In this document: positions 57,051-64,000 of the stretch, one piece after another | Numbering within the stretch: position 1 is the first letter of the stretch | Layout: each line of letters opens with the position of its first letter | NCBI RefSeq assembly: GCF_029910215.1 | Contig: NZ_CP110396.1 | Span: forward strand, 2,108,001 to 2,172,000 | DNA from: Paraburkholderia sp. D15 | GTDB lineage: Bacteria; Pseudomonadota; Gammaproteobacteria; Burkholderiales; Burkholderiaceae | DNA length: 64,000 nt | Direction of reading: 5' to 3' | Made by a program: the position numbers and the translations under genes | Notes under the pieces: model-generated | Seen by the model: only the letters and a program-made list of their open reading frames with translations | Told to the model about the DNA's origin: nothing | Databases searched by the model: none

Positions 57051-57433
57051 ACGACGAAGACCGCTACGAAGCCGGACTCGGCGTGCGTCGCGCGGTGCTG
57101 GGCGATGCGCACGTGGACCGTTCGCTCGCCAACCGCACCGAACTGACTGAGGAATTCCAGAACCTGATTACCCGCTACGCGTGGGGTGAAATCTGGACGC
57201 GCGACGGCTTACCGCGTCACACGCGCAGCCTGCTGACCATCGCGATGATGGTCGCGCTCAATCGCGGCGAGGAGCTGGCATTGCATTTGCGCGCGGCGAA
57301 AAACAACGGCGTGACGCGCGAGCAGATCAAGGAAGTGCTGCTGCAGACCGCGATCTATTGTGGCGTGCCGGCCGCGAATTCGGCGTTTCATCTCGCCGAC
57401 AAACTGTTCCGCGAGGAAGACGCGGCATCCTGA
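57047..57433 (+). CDS. pcaC: 4-carboxymuconolactone decarboxylase
   Basis: 128 residues, CMD/AhpD-like fold: GLGVRRAVLGDAHVDRSLAN, NLITRYAWGEIWTRDGLPRHTRSLLTIAMMVAL and EVLLQTAIYCGVPAANSAFH. Overlaps pcaD by four bases. Its last 46 bases overlap the 3' end of the TetR gene on the opposite strand. Confidence 0.93.
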   Translation: MNDEDRYEAGLGVRRAVLGDAHVDRSLANRTELTEEFQNLITRYAWGEIWTRDGLPRHTRSLLTIAMMVALNRGEELALHLRAAKNNGVTREQIKEVLLQTAIYCGVPAANSAFHLADKLFREEDAAS

Positions 57434-58161
57434 ACGTCGCTTGCCGACACGGGTGACACGGACGACTCGGGCAGCGATGACGGCATCGGCGGCATGGGCG
57501 GCAATTGCAGCCGCACTGCCCGCAACACCGTGTCCTTGATCACCTCGCGCCAATGCGCGAGCGCCGCCTTGTCCATCAGCGGCTCACCGAGAAACGCGCC
57601 GAGCGTGTACTGATTCGCGTTATAGAAATAACCGAGCGACGCGATCATCAGATACACGTCTCGCGCTTTCACGTCGGCGCGAAACACGTTTTGCGCGATG
57701 CCTGCATCCAGCAGCCGCTGCACCACGGAAATCGCGTAACCCGAAATCTCCTTCAGTTTGAGCGACTTTTTCGCGTGCTTGCCTTGATGCAGGTTTTCGC
57801 TCGACAGCAGCGTGACGAACTCGGGGTGATCGAGGTAGTACTGCCAGACGAATTCCACCATCTGTTCGAGACCGTGAATGGGGTTGTCGACGTCGAGATC
57901 GAGCCGGCTTTCCGCCTCGTTGAACTGCGTGTAGATGGTTTCCAGTACTTCGACGAACAACTGTTCCTTGCTGCCGAAGTAGTAGTAGATCATGCGGTCG
58001 TGCGAACTCGCGGCCTTCGAAATGCTCTCCACGCGGCCACTCGCGTAACCCTGTTTCGCGAACACCTTGATCGCCGCCTTGAGGATCTTGGCGCGCGTGT
58101 CCTGCGCCTGTTTCGCGCGGATGCCGGTAGCGCCCGGCTTGCGGACGGCAGTCGAACTCAT
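57388..58161 (-). CDS. TetR-family transcriptional regulator
   Basis: 257 residues from MSSTAVRKPG. N-terminal helix-turn-helix (TRAKILKAAIKVFAKQGYASGRVESISKAA...MIYYYFGSKEQLF) and an all-helical ligand domain (YLMIASLGYFYNANQYTLGAFLG). Divergent from the iron-sulfur reductase operon at 58471, with a perfect palindrome in the shared promoter region, so it most likely controls that operon. The low-complexity end (Ser/Pro-rich) overlaps pcaC. Confidence 0.9.
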   Translation of the reverse strand: MSSTAVRKPGATGIRAKQAQDTRAKILKAAIKVFAKQGYASGRVESISKAASSHDRMIYYYFGSKEQLFVEVLETIYTQFNEAESRLDLDVDNPIHGLEQMVEFVWQYYLDHPEFVTLLSSENLHQGKHAKKSLKLKEISGYAISVVQRLLDAGIAQNVFRADVKARDVYLMIASLGYFYNANQYTLGAFLGEPLMDKAALAHWREVIKDTVLRAVRLQLPPMPPMPSSLPESSVSPVSASDVQDAASSSRNSLSAR

Positions 58162-58470
58162 GACGGTCTCGGCTCTCGTTGTTGGACTCACGGTGAACGG
58201 CTCGCGCGACGCGTTCGCCGGCATCGGCGTAGATTGAAGCCTCGCCGTCATGGCGCTCAGGGTGCGGATGCCGCGTTGCACCATTGAAGCGAATGCCGGG
58301 AAACACGTTGCGCGGACTAATTTGATCGAGTAGATTTCTAACGAGTTTGGTGTAGCGGATACTACACGAACGGTAAGTGACCGCAACATGGAAAGCGGCG
58401 ATGCGCGAGAAAAGGCCTTCAAACAAGGGTTAATCGCGATGCCTCGCCGCCCGGAGCAGGACCGCTTGTA
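58162..58470. other. Divergent promoter region of the TetR gene and the reductase operon
   Basis: 309 bases with a perfect inverted repeat at 58350-58367. No gene seen. Confidence 0.5.
58350..58367. promoter_or_regulatory. Palindromic operator candidate for the TetR regulator
   Basis: GTGTAG-N6-CTACAC, a perfect inverted repeat located 104 bases before the start at 58471 and 189 bases before the TetR start. Size and symmetry fit a TetR dimer. Confidence 0.65.
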
Positions 58471-60114
58471 ATGTCGTCGTATGGAAACCCCACCATGACA
58501 GAACATACGAAGGTCGATTTCGGTGCGGAGCGCGTCGACGGCGAAACCGCGTCGACGCCGGGTCCGACCGTGCTCGAAAAGGCGGCCCCGCGCAGCGAGC
58601 GGATGGCGGCCAACAAGATCGAATGCAATGCGTGTCCCGTGCTGTGTCAGATATCCGAGGGCCGCACCGGCGCGTGCGATCGTTATGCGAATGCGCAAGG
58701 GCGGTTGATTCGCGTCGATCCGGTGGTGTTTCTGTCGCGCGATCAGCGTGCCGCTCATGACGGCGCGAACGCCTCCGCTGCGATGGTCGAATTTGGTGCA
58801 TCGCCGTCGTCTTCATCGGCCTTTGATTCCGCTGCTGGAGAAGACGCGCTGTTCGTCACCGGCGTCGGCGCATCGTCCACTTATCCGGACTACAAACCCG
58901 CGCCGTTCATCGTCGCGTCGAAACACGACGGCGTCGACATGGTCACGGTGGTGACCGAAGGCATTTTCAGCTATTGCAGCTTCAAGGTGAAGATCGACAC
59001 CGATCGCTTTCTCGGCGCGGAGCAATCGAACGTGCGTTGTCAGGGCGAGATCGTCGGCCACGTCACCACCGCGGAATACGGCTCGCAGATGCTGAGCCTC
59101 GGCGGCGTCCATCATCTGACCGGCGGCAGCAAGAAGGAAGGCCGCGTGACCTGCGACATGATGCTCGCGCTCGGCAACAAGGAAGCGGTGGAATTGAGCA
59201 TCGACGACGGCGCGGGTCTGGTGATTCGCGCGGGCGCCGCGCCGGTCGTCGACGGCGTCGAGGAGCAGCGCATGCGCGTAGGTTGCGGCTCGGCGACGAT
59301 CGGCATCTTCGCCAAACAGTGGTTCGGTCACGTCGACGAAGTCGTGGTGGTCGACGATCACATCACTGGCGTGCTGAGCGAGCATCAGGCGGGGCGCTGT
59401 CTTGGCATGGAGCGTTCCGGGGTGAAGATTCGTGGACGGAAATCCACGCCGGGCCGTTACTTTCAGGTCGCGAATCCCGGCACCGGTTGGGGCGGCACCG
59501 ATATTCAGGATCCTTTGGCGATCGTCGAGGGCTTCGATCCCGCGGTGGCGAAGCCGGGCATGCGCGTGCTGATGGTGTCGACGACCGGCGAACATGCGCA
59601 GTGGTACGAACTCGATCGCGATCTCGTGCCCCGCGTCGCGCCGATGCCGGATGCCGTGCGCCGCACGGTCGAGCGGATCGGCGAGAACTGCGAGCCGTCG
59701 CTCGCCACCGTGCTGTTTCTCGGCGGCGCGGGCGGCAGTCTGCGCGCGGGCGCGACCGAGAACCCGGTGCTCCTTACGCGTGCGATCAAACAGAATCTGG
59801 TCAACGTGACGTGCGGCGGCGCGCCGGCCTATGTGTGGCCCGGCGGCGGCATCACGGTGATGGTGGACGTGTCGCGCATGCCGGACCGTTCGTTCGGCAC
59901 GGTGCCGACGCCCGCGCTCGTCGCGCCGATCGAATTCACGATGACGTACGACGCGTATCGCGATCTCGGCGGTCATCTCGATGCGGTACGTTCGTTGAGC
60001 AGCGTACTGGCGAATGGACCCGAGCACCGGGAAGGCGCGCCGCTCGCGCGCCGCACGCTGGCGCGCCATGCCGGCAATCCATGGCCGCCGGGCATGCCGC
60101 CGATGCTCGGCTGA
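58471..60114 (+). CDS. 6-hydroxynicotinate reductase-like iron-sulfur protein
   Basis: 547 residues; an ATG eight codons inside is an alternative start. An N-terminal cysteine cluster C52-x2-C55-x3-C59-x9-C69 (ECNACPVLCQISEGRTGAC) should bind a [4Fe-4S] centre. The rest is a large domain (FVTGVGASSTYPDYKPAPFIVASKHDGVDMVTVVTEGIFSYCSFKVKIDTDR) recalled from proteins annotated as 6-hydroxynicotinate reductase; whether this is the true substrate here is unknown. It starts an operon with a UPF0280 protein, two AA_synth proteins and a branched-chain-type permease. Confidence 0.75.
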   Translation: MSSYGNPTMTEHTKVDFGAERVDGETASTPGPTVLEKAAPRSERMAANKIECNACPVLCQISEGRTGACDRYANAQGRLIRVDPVVFLSRDQRAAHDGANASAAMVEFGASPSSSSAFDSAAGEDALFVTGVGASSTYPDYKPAPFIVASKHDGVDMVTVVTEGIFSYCSFKVKIDTDRFLGAEQSNVRCQGEIVGHVTTAEYGSQMLSLGGVHHLTGGSKKEGRVTCDMMLALGNKEAVELSIDDGAGLVIRAGAAPVVDGVEEQRMRVGCGSATIGIFAKQWFGHVDEVVVVDDHITGVLSEHQAGRCLGMERSGVKIRGRKSTPGRYFQVANPGTGWGGTDIQDPLAIVEGFDPAVAKPGMRVLMVSTTGEHAQWYELDRDLVPRVAPMPDAVRRTVERIGENCEPSLATVLFLGGAGGSLRAGATENPVLLTRAIKQNLVNVTCGGAPAYVWPGGGITVMVDVSRMPDRSFGTVPTPALVAPIEFTMTYDAYRDLGGHLDAVRSLSSVLANGPEHREGAPLARRTLARHAGNPWPPGMPPMLG

Positions 60115-60120
60115 CCGCCC

Positions 60121-60163
60121 GAACCCAAGGCACGAACCCACGGCACGAACCCAAGGCACGAAC
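60121..60163. repeat. 13-bp tandem repeat, three units
   Basis: Three units of GAACCCA(A/C)GGCAC plus a partial GAAC fill the gap between the reductase-like and UPF0280 genes. Confidence 0.9.
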
Positions 60164-60170
60164 GAACCTC

Positions 60171-61163
60171 ATGACCCCCACCCGCACGCCACTCGATGCG
60201 ACCCGCTGGCATTGGCAGCATGGTCCCATCGATCTGATCCTCGCCGCCGACGGCGACGCCCCGGCGTTGCACGCGGCCTACGAGGCGTGCTGGGCGCGCT
60301 TCGCGGAGATCCTGCCGGAACTGGTCGCCGAGTTGAAACGGCTGCGTGCGCCCGTGGACCCTCATGCGTCGCTCGACACCTGCGGCGTGCAAGGCCCGGT
60401 CGCGCGCCGCATGTGGTCCGCCTGCCAGCCGCACAGCACGCGCTACATCACGCCGATGGCGGCGGTAGCCGGCAGCGTCGCGGACGAACTGATCGCGGCG
60501 TTCGCGCGCGACGGCATCTCGCGCGCGTACATCAACAACGGCGGCGACATCGCGCTGTATCTAGGCGAAGGGCAGCAGTATCGGGTCGGTGTCTTCGCCG
60601 ACCTTGCGCAATGGCGAGGTGCACAAAGTGCCCTGAAACACGGCCCATCGCGCACCAATGACCTGGCGCTCGACGCCAGTCTCACGCTCGACGCCACGCA
60701 ACCCGTCCGCGGCATCGCGACGAGCGGATGGCGCGGACGCAGTTTCAGTCTCGGCATTGCCGACAGCGTGACCGTGCTCGCGCGCGACGCCGCCCGCGCT
60801 GATGCCGCCGCGACGATGATCGCCAACGCGGTGGACGTTCCGCATCCGGGCATTCTGCGGCGCCCGGCGGCTTCGCTGAAAGACGACAGCGATCTCGGCG
60901 ACATCCCTGTCACCGTTCACGTGCCCGCGTTGCCGCTGCCGCTGATCGACATCGCGTTGGCGCGCGGCATCGATGCCGCGCGACGTCTGCGTGAACAAGG
61001 TTTGATCGAAGGCGCCGCGTTATTCCTGCAAGGACAGATACGCGTCACCGGGATTCCCGACGACACTCGCGCGCTGCCGGGCCGGCGCGATCAGACAACC
61101 CAGCATACCCAGAATATCCAGAAGACTCAGGAGGCTCCGTGTTCGAAATACGCCGCGTGCTGA
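60171..61163 (+). CDS. UPF0280 (ApbE-related) protein
   Basis: 330 residues. Core motifs resemble UPF0280/ApbE-like flavin-transfer proteins: MAAVAGSVADELIAAFARDGISRAYINNGGDIALYL, RGIATSGWRGRSFSLGIADSVTVLA and DAAATMIANAVDV. It probably helps insert or anchor FMN or acts on a related cofactor, perhaps for the reductase upstream. The last 25 bases overlap the next gene, which starts at a GTG. Confidence 0.78.
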   Translation: MTPTRTPLDATRWHWQHGPIDLILAADGDAPALHAAYEACWARFAEILPELVAELKRLRAPVDPHASLDTCGVQGPVARRMWSACQPHSTRYITPMAAVAGSVADELIAAFARDGISRAYINNGGDIALYLGEGQQYRVGVFADLAQWRGAQSALKHGPSRTNDLALDASLTLDATQPVRGIATSGWRGRSFSLGIADSVTVLARDAARADAAATMIANAVDVPHPGILRRPAASLKDDSDLGDIPVTVHVPALPLPLIDIALARGIDAARRLREQGLIEGAALFLQGQIRVTGIPDDTRALPGRRDQTTQHTQNIQKTQEAPCSKYAAC

Positions 61164-61729
61164 CGCATGTCGAAGAGATTTTTCACGAGTTCGGTCCCGC
61201 GCCCGCGCAGCCGCTCAAACGCGGCGCGATTGCCGCGGTGATGACGAATCCGTTCGCGGGCCGCTACGAAGCGAAAATCGATCACGCGATGGAAGCGCTC
61301 AAGCCGATCGGTTTCGACATGGCGCAACGTCTGCTCGCGGCGATGGCGGTGCCGCATGCGGCGATCGAGAGTTACGGCAAGGGCGCGATTGTCGGCGCGC
61401 GCGGCGAACTCGAACATGGCGCGCTGTGGCACGTGCCCGGCGGTTACGCGATGCGCGAGCTGCTGGAGAAGAACGGCGTGCCGACCAACGCGATCGTGCC
61501 GTCGACGAAGAAAGTGGGCGCGCCGTCCAGTTCGCTCGACGTGCCGCTCACGCACGTCAACGCGAGTTATGTGCGCAGCCACTTCGACGCGATCGAAGTG
61601 CGCGTGCCGGGCGCGCCCGCCGCCGACGAACTGGTTTACATCCTCGTGATGAGTACCGGGCAGCGCGTGCATGCGCGCGTCGGCGGACTCGCGAAAGAGG
61701 CGATCGTCGGCAAGGACGGCTTGCGCTGA
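61139..61729 (+). CDS. AA_synth (DUF1185) family protein, copy 1
   Basis: 196 residues starting at GTG, with AGGAGG placed correctly upstream inside the UPF0280 gene. Family motifs: AVMTNPFAGRYEAKIDHAME, ESYGKGAIVGARGELEHGALWHVP, and LTHVNASYVRSHFDAIEVRVPGAPAADELVYILVMSTG. Annotated as amino acid synthesis family, though no member has an assigned reaction that I can state with confidence. A close paralogue follows. Confidence 0.85.
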   Translation: MFEIRRVLTHVEEIFHEFGPAPAQPLKRGAIAAVMTNPFAGRYEAKIDHAMEALKPIGFDMAQRLLAAMAVPHAAIESYGKGAIVGARGELEHGALWHVPGGYAMRELLEKNGVPTNAIVPSTKKVGAPSSSLDVPLTHVNASYVRSHFDAIEVRVPGAPAADELVYILVMSTGQRVHARVGGLAKEAIVGKDGLR

Positions 61730-61750
61730 CCGGCCGCCGGACGAAAAACG

Positions 61751-61809
61751 CGACACGCACGCAACACGCACGCAACATGCAACACGAAAAGAACACGCGC
61801 AACACGCAC
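61751..61809. repeat. Degenerate 11-bp tandem repeat
   Basis: Imperfect copies of GCAACACGCAC (61761-61771 and 61799-61809 exact, others diverged) between the two AA_synth genes. Confidence 0.7.
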
Positions 61810-61826
61810 CCCAATCGGAGAGCGAC

Positions 61827-62411
61827 ATGGCAATCAAGCTTCGCAAGCTGATCGTACAGGTAGACGAAACACGCATTGAAATGGGCCAGCCGATCGATCC
61901 GCCGACGCGCCGCGCGGTTGCGATCGCGGTGATCGACAACCCCTACGCGGGCCGCTACGAAGCGAAACTCGACGCGCTGATCGAAGCCGGCGAAGAACTG
62001 GGCGCGCTGCTCGGCAACAAGTGCGTCGAAGCCCTGGGCATCGCGCCGGGCGACGCGCACAGTTACGGCAAGGCCGCGATCGTCGGCGAAGCGGGCGAGC
62101 TCGAACACGCGGCCGCGATCCTGCACCCCAAGCTCGGCGCGCCGCTGCGCGTGGCGGTCGAGAAAGGCGCGGCGCTGGTGCCGTCGGCAAAGAAGATCGG
62201 CACGCTCGGCACCGCGATCGACGTGCCGCTCGGGCACAAGGACGCCGCCTTCGTGCGTAGCCATTTCGATGCGATCGAAGCGCGCGTGTCCGACGCGCCG
62301 CGCGCCAACGAGATCGTGGTAGCCGTCGCGGTCACGGCGTCGGGCCGGCCGCTGCCGCGCATCGGCGGCTTGCAGGCCAACGAAATCAAGGGCGAGGACG
62401 GCTTGCGCTGA
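61827..62411 (+). CDS. AA_synth (DUF1185) family protein, copy 2
   Basis: 194 residues from MAIKLRKLIVQVDETRIEMG, with GGAGAG upstream. Shares with copy 1 the NPYAGRYEAKLDALIE, HSYGKAAIVGEAGELEHAAAILHP and KDAAFVRSHFDAIEARVS segments and the GxxxxEIxGxDGLR end. The two may form a heteromer. Followed 33 bases later by the permease gene. Confidence 0.85.
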   Translation: MAIKLRKLIVQVDETRIEMGQPIDPPTRRAVAIAVIDNPYAGRYEAKLDALIEAGEELGALLGNKCVEALGIAPGDAHSYGKAAIVGEAGELEHAAAILHPKLGAPLRVAVEKGAALVPSAKKIGTLGTAIDVPLGHKDAAFVRSHFDAIEARVSDAPRANEIVVAVAVTASGRPLPRIGGLQANEIKGEDGLR

Positions 62412-62444
62412 GTTAGCATTCGGGTATTTTTGCCGAGGGTCGCG

Positions 62445-64000
62445 ATGCTTTCGAATTTGCTGGTACAGCTGGTCAATGGACTCGCCGACGCGTCGACGCT
62501 GTTTCTGGTCGCCGCCGGTTTGTCGTTGATCTTCGGCGTGACGCGCATCGTCAACTTTGCGCACGGCTCGTTCTATATGTTCGGCATCTACGTCGCGTAC
62601 AGCATCGCGAGCCGGTTCGGCCACACCACGGGCGGCTTCTGGCTCTCGGTGCTGGCCGCCGCGCTGGTCGTCGCGGTGCTCGGCGCGCTGGTCGAGATCG
62701 TCGTGCTGAGGCGGATCTATCAGGCGCCGGAACTGTTCCATCTGCTGGCGACCTTCGCGCTCGTGCTGATCTTTCGCGATGCCGCGCTGTGGCTGTGGGG
62801 CCCGGAAGATCTGTTCGGCCCGCGCGCGCCGCATCTGGCGGGCGCGGTCGATTTTCTCGGCCATCCGCTGCCCACCTACGACATCGCGCTGATCGTGATC
62901 GGCCCGGTCGTGCTGCTGCTGCTCTGGTATGCGTTGACGCGCACGCGCTGGGGCACGCTGGTGCGCGCCGCGACCCAGGACCGCGAGATGCTCGGCGCGC
63001 TCGGTATCAACCAGGCGTGGCTGTTCACCGGCGTGTTCTTCGTCGGCGCGTTTCTCGCCGGACTCGGCGGCGCGCTGCAAGGGCCGCGCATGTCGGCGAA
63101 CCTGTCGCTGGATCTGGAGACGATCGGCAATGCGTTCGTGGTGGTGGTGGTCGGCGGCATGGGTTCGATTCCCGGCGCGTTCGTCGCCGCGCTGATCATC
63201 GCGGAGATCAAGGCGTTGTGTATCGGCATCGGACACGTGACGATCTTCGGCATCGGTCTGTCGTTGAGCCGCTTTACGCTGGTCGCGGAATTCGTCGTGA
63301 TGGCGGTCGTGCTGGTGGTGCGTCCGTGGGGCCTGCTCGGCCGCGCCACCGCCGCGGTGCGCGGGATGGCGGCGCCGGAAGCGCCGTTGCGGCCGGCGGG
63401 CAAACGTCTGAAGTGGCTCGCCGCGATCGCATTGCTGGTGCTCGCGCTCGCGCCGCTCGCGGCCAACGCATTCCCGTATATGCCGGTGTTGCTGGTCGAG
63501 ATACTGATTGCCGTGCTGTTCGCCACAAGTCTGCATTTCATCATGGGGCCGGGCGGCATGCATTCGTTCGGTCATGCCGCGTACTTCGGCCTTGGTGCGT
63601 ACGGCGCCGCGTTGTTCCTCAAGGTGCTGAACCTGCCGATGGAAGCCGCGTTGTTGCTCGGCCCTCTGCTCGCCGTAGCCGGTGCGCTGGTGTTCGGCTG
63701 GTTCTGCGTCAGGCTTTCCGGCGTCTACCTCGCGATGCTGACGCTCGCGTTCGCGCAGATCGTCTGGTCGGTGGTGTTCCAGTGGGACGACGTGACCGGC
63801 GGCAGCAACGGCGTGCTCGGCTTGTGGCCGTCGAACTGGCTGTCGTCGCCGGTCGCGTTCTATTACCTGACGCTGGTGTGCGTGGTGATCGGCGTATGGC
63901 TGCTGCGCAGGATGCTGTTCTCGCCGCTCGGCTACGCGATGCGTGCGTCGCGCGATTCGGTGCTGCGCGCCGAGGCGATCGGCATCGACGTGAAGCGCGT
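62445..64000 (+). CDS. Fused LivH-LivM branched-chain-type ABC permease, 3' end outside window
   Basis: An ATG at 62445 opens a frame with no stop to the end of the window (518 codons). Residues 1-300 are LivH-like (GLSLIFGVTRIVNFAHGSFYMFG, EMLGALGINQAWLFTGVFFVGAFLAGLGGALQGPR). After a short linker near residue 315 the chain continues directly as LivM (GPGGMHSFGHAAYFGLGAYGAALFL, RLSGVYLAMLTLAFAQIVW, GGSNGVLG, MRASRDSVLRAEAIGID). Both permease halves of a HAAT importer are thus one protein. Substrate is likely the compound handled by the upstream genes. Confidence 0.88.
   Translation, partial: MLSNLLVQLVNGLADASTLFLVAAGLSLIFGVTRIVNFAHGSFYMFGIYVAYSIASRFGHTTGGFWLSVLAAALVVAVLGALVEIVVLRRIYQAPELFHLLATFALVLIFRDAALWLWGPEDLFGPRAPHLAGAVDFLGHPLPTYDIALIVIGPVVLLLLWYALTRTRWGTLVRAATQDREMLGALGINQAWLFTGVFFVGAFLAGLGGALQGPRMSANLSLDLETIGNAFVVVVVGGMGSIPGAFVAALIIAEIKALCIGIGHVTIFGIGLSLSRFTLVAEFVVMAVVLVVRPWGLLGRATAAVRGMAAPEAPLRPAGKRLKWLAAIALLVLALAPLAANAFPYMPVLLVEILIAVLFATSLHFIMGPGGMHSFGHAAYFGLGAYGAALFLKVLNLPMEAALLLGPLLAVAGALVFGWFCVRLSGVYLAMLTLAFAQIVWSVVFQWDDVTGGSNGVLGLWPSNWLSSPVAFYYLTLVCVVIGVWLLRRMLFSPLGYAMRASRDSVLRAEAIGIDVKR

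Follow-up and report, generated by a model that had tools for sequence, protein, structure and literature searches.

A probable reductive nicotinate operon in Paraburkholderia sp. D15, with proposed roles for its UPF0280 and AA_synth proteins

A probable reductive nicotinate operon past the window edge

The right edge of a 64,000 nt stretch of the genome of the soil bacterium Paraburkholderia sp. D15 (hereafter the window; G000:C2:2108001-2172000, from a genome of 8.3 Mb in three contigs) carries the first genes of an operon that, judging from the relationships of its products, probably imports nicotinate (vitamin B3) and degrades it by a rare, reductive route in which the ring is reduced prior to being opened, a reading to which we give a probability of around 80 %. 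In the proposed sequence of steps, (a) a branched-chain-type ATP-binding cassette (ABC) importer would take up nicotinate, (b) a molybdenum hydroxylase would convert it to 6-hydroxynicotinate and pass the electrons to the respiratory chain, (c) a 6-hydroxynicotinate reductase-like Fe-S protein (HNR) would reduce this product to 1,4,5,6-tetrahydro-6-oxonicotinate (THON), and (d) an enamidase would convert the THON lactam to ammonia and 2-formylglutarate, a HyuAB-type hydrolase probably taking its place in other genomes with HNR. Steps b to d are proposed because of homology with enzymes in print, and the parts given below to the UPF0280 and AA_synth proteins of the operon come from gene context and fold.

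A first-pass annotation of the window had listed a TetR regulator, an HNR-like protein, UPF0280, two AA_synth proteins and a fused permease, all of which were recovered here, and had forecast genes for ATPases and a solute-binding protein past the edge. These were located using continued window numbering (window position = position in stretch L003 + 56000). The permease gene (62430..64406, plus strand, running past the window end at 64000) encodes a LivH-LivM fusion of 658 residues with two BPD_transp_2 stretches, and it leads into livG (64403-65236) and livF (65233-65946) as well as genes encoding an enamidase-like amidohydrolase (66005-67204), a 2Fe-2S protein (67218-67736), a molybdenum hydroxylase fused to cytochrome c (67733-71401) and the solute-binding protein (71477-72703), i.e. 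into related rather than unrelated genes. Adjacent genes overlap or lie at most about 100 nt apart, and the operon genes are also found together in other genomes. The uptake and reductive or hydrolytic breakdown of a nitrogen-containing compound, as suggested in the first-pass annotation, fits the reduction and subsequent hydrolysis of an N-heterocycle; its statement that no pathway is assigned had to be abandoned, since the genes past the edge correspond to the reductive (THON) nicotinate cluster described for Azorhizobium caulinodans / Bradyrhizobiaceae strain SG-6C in the sections of PMC3511419 that deal with it.

Among the individual enzymes, the amidohydrolase aligns over residues 12-394 of 399 with the Eubacterium barkeri enamidase (PDB 2VUN) and scores 370 bits, against 27 bits for the runner-up in the PDB. 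According to the relevant part of PMC9304392, the E. barkeri enzyme is bifunctional, i.e. it catalyses ring opening and deamination to (S)-2-formylglutarate. The molybdenum subunit of the window genome (1222 residues) combines molybdopterin domains with a C-terminal cytochrome c part, which holds three CxxCH motifs and resembles the cytochrome subunit of membrane aldehyde dehydrogenase, and a 65 % relative of the 2Fe-2S subunit is annotated as 2Fe-2S-binding. By family, the cluster would hold a molybdenum nicotinate hydroxylase.

The identity of HNR (58495..60114, plus strand) comes from its relatives, which carry the name 6-hydroxynicotinate reductase and the closest named of which belong to Paraburkholderia; the E. 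barkeri protein lies outside this comparison. Its start was set at 58495 instead of the 58471 of the open reading frame list because the beginning M1-x-E-H-T-K is nearly invariant in the relatives, and seven cysteines are kept in at least 119 of 120 sequences. At E 0.001, HNR matched neither a Pfam nor an NCBIfam profile, though the family has at least 8000 scored relatives; PDB sequence matches were no better than E 0.048, and the predicted model had no Foldseek match at E <= 0.001. A possible electron source is a ferredoxin-NADP reductase, whose gene lies in ten of the 31 fetched HNR loci and in five of the eight plasmid loci opened around HNR; none was seen in the stretches L003, which holds the window operon, or L004, and a relative (64 % identity) is encoded on contig C1 of the window genome. 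In one single-contig genome, HNR is split over two overlapping frames (L062, G016:C1:2969817-2971252), with UPF0280, AA_synth and the transporter being kept.

With E. barkeri nicotinate fermentation the proposed route shares 6-hydroxynicotinate, THON, 2-formylglutarate and an orthologous enamidase. E. barkeri, however, is an anaerobe which, as Alhapel and colleagues are said to have described in 2006, reduces 2-formylglutarate, whereas the window operon has a cytochrome-linked hydroxylase and probably proceeds by decarboxylation towards glutarate. In the latter respect it would resemble Azorhizobium, where breakdown also leads towards glutarate. E. barkeri and other Firmicutes are not known to decarboxylate 2-formylglutarate. 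Another pyridine or pyridone carboxylate handled by the same chemistry, e.g. isonicotinate or a methylated or chlorinated nicotinate, would be compatible with a solute-binding protein that matches the generic Peripla_BP_6 and with the variation of HNR clusters in their molybdenum hydroxylase and ring opener. Nevertheless, such a substrate appears improbable, given that the enamidase is clearly orthologous to the E. barkeri enzyme and that, in the sections of PMC3511419 on this cluster, a like cluster was assigned to nicotinate in a strain degrading nicotinate completely. The same sections leave two conserved proteins of the cluster unexplained, and we infer from the description of these genomes that the two are UPF0280 and AA_synth. 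The operon itself is a member of a known cluster, and what is new are the proposals, all comparative, for UPF0280, AA_synth and HyuAB.

Two candidate ring openers

The genome survey covered 398 Pseudomonadota genomes, i.e. 32 with HNR (including the window genome) and 366 without; the 32 come from 15 genera, so that Fisher values calculated on them overstate independence. Enamidase (E <= 1e-60) was found in 20 of the 398, 18 of these with HNR. A different gene content became apparent in the eight plasmid loci opened around HNR (the plasmid records numbering 26, including 12 from Sulfitobacter), where three loci carry enamidase-like genes and five carry a hydantoinase/oxoprolinase-related pair of HyuA and HyuB, annotated as hydantoinase in three and as acetophenone carboxylase subunits in two. 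A genome-wide search was made with HyuB, HyuA having been observed at the opened HNR loci. Sixteen of the 32 HNR genomes have close HyuB (65-82 % identity to the Neorhizobium HyuB), the 65 % line having been drawn after the gap to paralogues at 41-45 % was visible. Enamidase alone is thus found in 16 HNR genomes, close HyuB alone in 14, both in two (G123 and G194) and neither in none; enamidase is the opener present in the window genome, where a search at E 1e-100 gave no HyuB. Among 160 of the 366 genomes without HNR, hand-picked as about every second handle, close HyuB was absent, with paralogues at 43-44 % in two.

Since every HNR genome has enamidase or close HyuB and the 160 controls lack the latter, the two openers look interchangeable, and by analogy it seems more probable than not that HyuAB opens the THON lactam in HNR genomes without enamidase. 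5-Oxoprolinase, to which HyuAB may be likened, is an ATP-dependent enzyme. Gene distance speaks against this assignment, as close HyuB is at most about 12 kb from HNR in seven of the 16 genomes and farther away or on another contig in nine (in G139, HyuA is near HNR and close HyuB 1.4 Mb away); this weakens the case for one operon and leaves the co-occurrence untouched. Two HyuB frames (G194:C80:13899-15572 and G197:C3:241938-243608) contain one stop codon each; G194 also has enamidase, and in G197 none was found at E 1e-60.

UPF0280 as a candidate flavin maturase

UPF0280 (60171..61163, plus strand) matches the ApbE profile at 30 bits (cut-off 25.6) and PRK04334.1-2 at 401 bits (cut-off 290), and is the sole ApbE-family match in the window genome. 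It occurs in the identical set of 32 genomes as HNR, with the two genes adjacent. The HNR of E. barkeri is reported to carry a covalent flavin, and UPF0280 shares the fold of the ApbE/Ftp/FmnB flavin transferases, aligned over more than 200 residues, the best-scoring flavin protein being Treponema Ftp. Its invariant stretches NxGGD, ATSG and AD-A are presumably common to ApbE, and S185 and D211, which align with the Ser and Asp of the ApbE triad, are invariant as well. On balance, context and fold lead us to favour a role as maturation enzyme, in which UPF0280 would install the covalent flavin on HNR by means of an ApbE-type FAD (flavin adenine dinucleotide) site.

Several points weigh against this role. 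The covalent flavin of HNR is background from E. barkeri, extended here by analogy. Relatives of UPF0280 exist beyond the Pseudomonadota (two methanogen controls below cut-off; DVU1097), and the link to HNR is claimed for the present subfamily only. The best target-like stretch of HNR, DDHITG[VI][LVM][ST] (120/120), differs from the canonical D-x-x-[ST]-G-A-[ST] in the two final residues, and no full match to the latter was found in the conserved columns of HNR, targets in other proteins not having been sought. Finally, in the alignment the general-base His of ApbE is replaced by Arg (R190, 119/119), which leaves the Ser-His-Asp triad described in PMC12052999 incomplete. In these last two respects UPF0280 and its proposed substrate are unlike the known transferase systems, and both would be accommodated if UPF0280 were instead an FAD-binding subunit, a flavin chaperone or a pyrophosphatase that converts FAD to flavin mononucleotide for HNR, without transferase activity; Treponema Ftp is in fact a bifunctional transferase and pyrophosphatase. 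We regard this alternative as credible and less probable, considering the invariance of S185 and D211, the extent of the ApbE fold and the reported covalent nature of the HNR flavin.

A conserved threonine of HNR, Thr421, was considered as flavin site and rejected, the position being Ser in four and Val in one of 120 sequences. On a plasmid of Hydrogenophaga sp. BPS33 (L212, NZ_CP044550.1) there are four UPF0280 places and no HNR match anywhere on that record; the two copies that were inspected sit in repeated segments with IS1071 transposases.

AA_synth proteins in pyridine catabolic loci

The two AA_synth (DUF1185) paralogues, AAS1 (61139..61729, plus strand) and AAS2 (61827..62411, plus strand), are full-length matches to the AA_synth profile PF06684 at 220 and 233 bits, respectively (cut-off 27), and AAS1 matches PDB 3BYQ at 170 bits. 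They are separate in tree leaf order, which, together with the best tblastn match at HNR/enamidase loci and with no support test, was used to tell the two types apart. PDB entries 3BYQ and 2QTP belong to this family and are labelled 'uncharacterized', whereas here the family is tied to pyridine breakdown; we know of no function of either the AA_synth or the UPF0280 family.

AA_synth was detected in 59 of the 398 genomes. The first-pass annotation had expected UPF0280 and AA_synth to be linked, which holds in so far as 31 of the 32 genomes with HNR and UPF0280 have AA_synth (the exception being G139), but the link is looser than that between UPF0280 and HNR, with AA_synth present in 28 genomes without UPF0280. 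Outside HNR loci, 45 genes in 43 places were fetched from the 59-genome list, and these places were assigned to context classes by hand; for eight of them (L164, L165, L169, L176, L180, L188, L192 and L201) the neighbours were scanned with Pfam, rough GC-based gene picking being used solely for choosing the genes to scan. Twenty-two of the 43 places adjoin two or more of tgnA-, tgnB- and tgnC-like genes and an alpha/beta hydrolase. In Acinetobacter sp. PK01, the annotation names the tgn products trigonelline monooxygenase and (Z)-2-((N-methylformamido)methylene)-5-hydroxybutyrolactone dehydrogenase. Four further places adjoin enamidase with no HNR in the stretch (L183, L187, L194 and L198), and three lie near another FAD monooxygenase, an alpha/beta hydrolase being shown in L169 only.

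Three places are found in vitamin B6 clusters, as recognized by scanning (L188) or tblastn (L189 and L196). In L188, AA_synth has on one side the MHPCO oxygenase (3ALJ, 838 bits) and on the other a small gene followed by the decarboxylase Mlr6791 (2Z7B, 465 bits), with the E-2AMS hydrolase (3KXP, 492 bits) close by. Relatives of the enzymes of the Mesorhizobium loti vitamin B6 pathway flank AA_synth in G194, G197 and G274, although the upstream ring chemistry of that pathway differs and its skeleton is that of succinate, not glutarate. As far as the pathway account in PMC3538738 goes, E-2AMS yields succinic semialdehyde, ammonia, acetate and CO2 in this route. The nicotinate, trigonelline and B6 routes have in common a ring-opened (acyl)aminomethylene-dicarboxylate that is converted to a semialdehyde and CO2. 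Considering that AA_synth recurs at trigonelline and B6 genes with such shared intermediates, we infer that its substrate is the opened product (a formyl- or aminomethylene-dicarboxylate), on which it would probably work as either a decarboxylase or an enamine hydrolase. Eleven residues are identical in 104 of 104 AA_synth sequences (R5, N37, K81, G86, E92, H93, R106, P136, P160, E164 and R180), and eight of these are charged or polar, as might be expected for a dicarboxylate-binding enzyme.

The distribution of the two types bears on the choice between these activities. All 18 HNR genomes with enamidase have AAS2, which in G123 and G194 sits at the enamidase locus. As enamidase already supplies the deamination in these 18, this fits decarboxylation of the formyl acid. 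Tentatively, we therefore propose from its context that AA_synth is a decarboxylase leading towards glutarate semialdehyde. AAS1, on the other hand, occurs in 13 of the 14 HyuB-only genomes vs nine of the 18 enamidase genomes, and this fits enamine hydrolysis. The AA_synth proteins, for which structural classification suggests a RidA-like fold, would then be enamine hydrolases, with AAS1 taking over, in genomes of the HyuAB type, the deamination that enamidase otherwise performs. This appears the less likely activity, both because of AAS2 in the enamidase genomes and because both types occur together at three plasmid loci with HyuAB (L206, L208 and L210), so that the split by ring opener is not strict. 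As these three loci and the genome G386 also carry AAS2, a strict link between AAS2 and enamidase was likewise rejected.

Other observations weigh against any catalytic assignment of this kind. The HNR genome G139 lacks AA_synth, and the step can therefore be dispensable. Eight of the 43 outside places adjoin an FAA hydrolase (L164, L167, L176, L190, L192, L197, L202 and L203), a setting for which no pyridine link is known to us. Moreover, the E-2AMS hydrolase alone gives semialdehyde, ammonia and CO2 according to the account in PMC3538738, so that AA_synth may merely accelerate the reaction. A noncatalytic role, be it structural, regulatory or transporter-linked, would agree with the absence from G139 and with the three outside places in other surroundings, one of which (L180) is beside a branched-chain-type transporter, but it is unlikely in view of the eleven invariant positions and the repeated placement in several pyridine pathways.

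Among the three FAA hydrolase loci with scanned neighbours, two contain a GntR regulator and a zinc alcohol dehydrogenase. In L180 (G095:C1:1298500-1314000), from a genome with no HNR, a binding protein and a 3-hydroxyisobutyrate-dehydrogenase-family gene accompany AA_synth and the transporter.

Regulator and neighbouring regions

The TetR-family regulator (57388..58161, minus strand, start codon uncertain) is encoded divergently from the operon and matches TetR_N at 47 bits and TetR_C_29 at 131 bits, while reaching the cut-off of none of the 19 NCBIfam models listed. Among the best 80 of 591 named loci, betaproteobacterial or uncultured by name, the closest of the queried genes ahead of HNR is a minus-strand TetR gene in 68. 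Paraburkholderia xenovorans LB400 is one of the named organisms whose genome has the cluster. A perfect inverted repeat, GTGTAG-N6-CTACAC (58350..58367), lies between tetR and HNR and is the probable operator through which the TetR protein would control the operon. Its core has a single exact copy in the whole genome, and the pattern TGTAGYNNRTACTACA precedes HNR in 13 of 15 aligned named Paraburkholderia/Burkholderia loci; the exact pattern was not found in L036, from the same genus.

Two spacers within the operon (60120-60163 and 61748-61781) consist of short tandem repeats with units of 13 and 11 nt, respectively, in around three copies each. To the left of the TetR gene, the segment 53318-57433 belongs to the 3-oxoadipate (protocatechuate) pathway, with PcaD matched at 328 bits (cut-off 256); coenzyme A-transferase-like subunits, a PcaB-like lyase and a carboxymuconolactone-decarboxylase-like open reading frame were identified there by eye.

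Conclusions

Taken jointly, UPF0280 would be a new, dedicated His-to-Arg flavinyltransferase subfamily serving HNR as its one partner at an off-consensus site, i.e. DDHITG[VI][LVM][ST], AA_synth a hitherto unassigned enzyme family that finishes the degradation of opened pyridines (aminomethylene/formyl-dicarboxylates) in three pathways or more (nicotinate, trigonelline and B6), and enamidase and HyuAB interchangeable; that all of this holds together is doubtful. The analysis nevertheless puts forward specific functions for two families, together with a second candidate for ring opening. If UPF0280 does flavinylate HNR, ApbE-type modification would reach an Fe-S reductase via an altered active site, and if AA_synth acts on opened pyridines, a step of vitamin B6 breakdown deemed spontaneous or bundled with the hydrolase would gain an enzyme of its own. 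Both proposals, if true, would bear on the turnover of vitamins in soil and on how pyridine pollutants, 6-chloronicotinate among them, are degraded.

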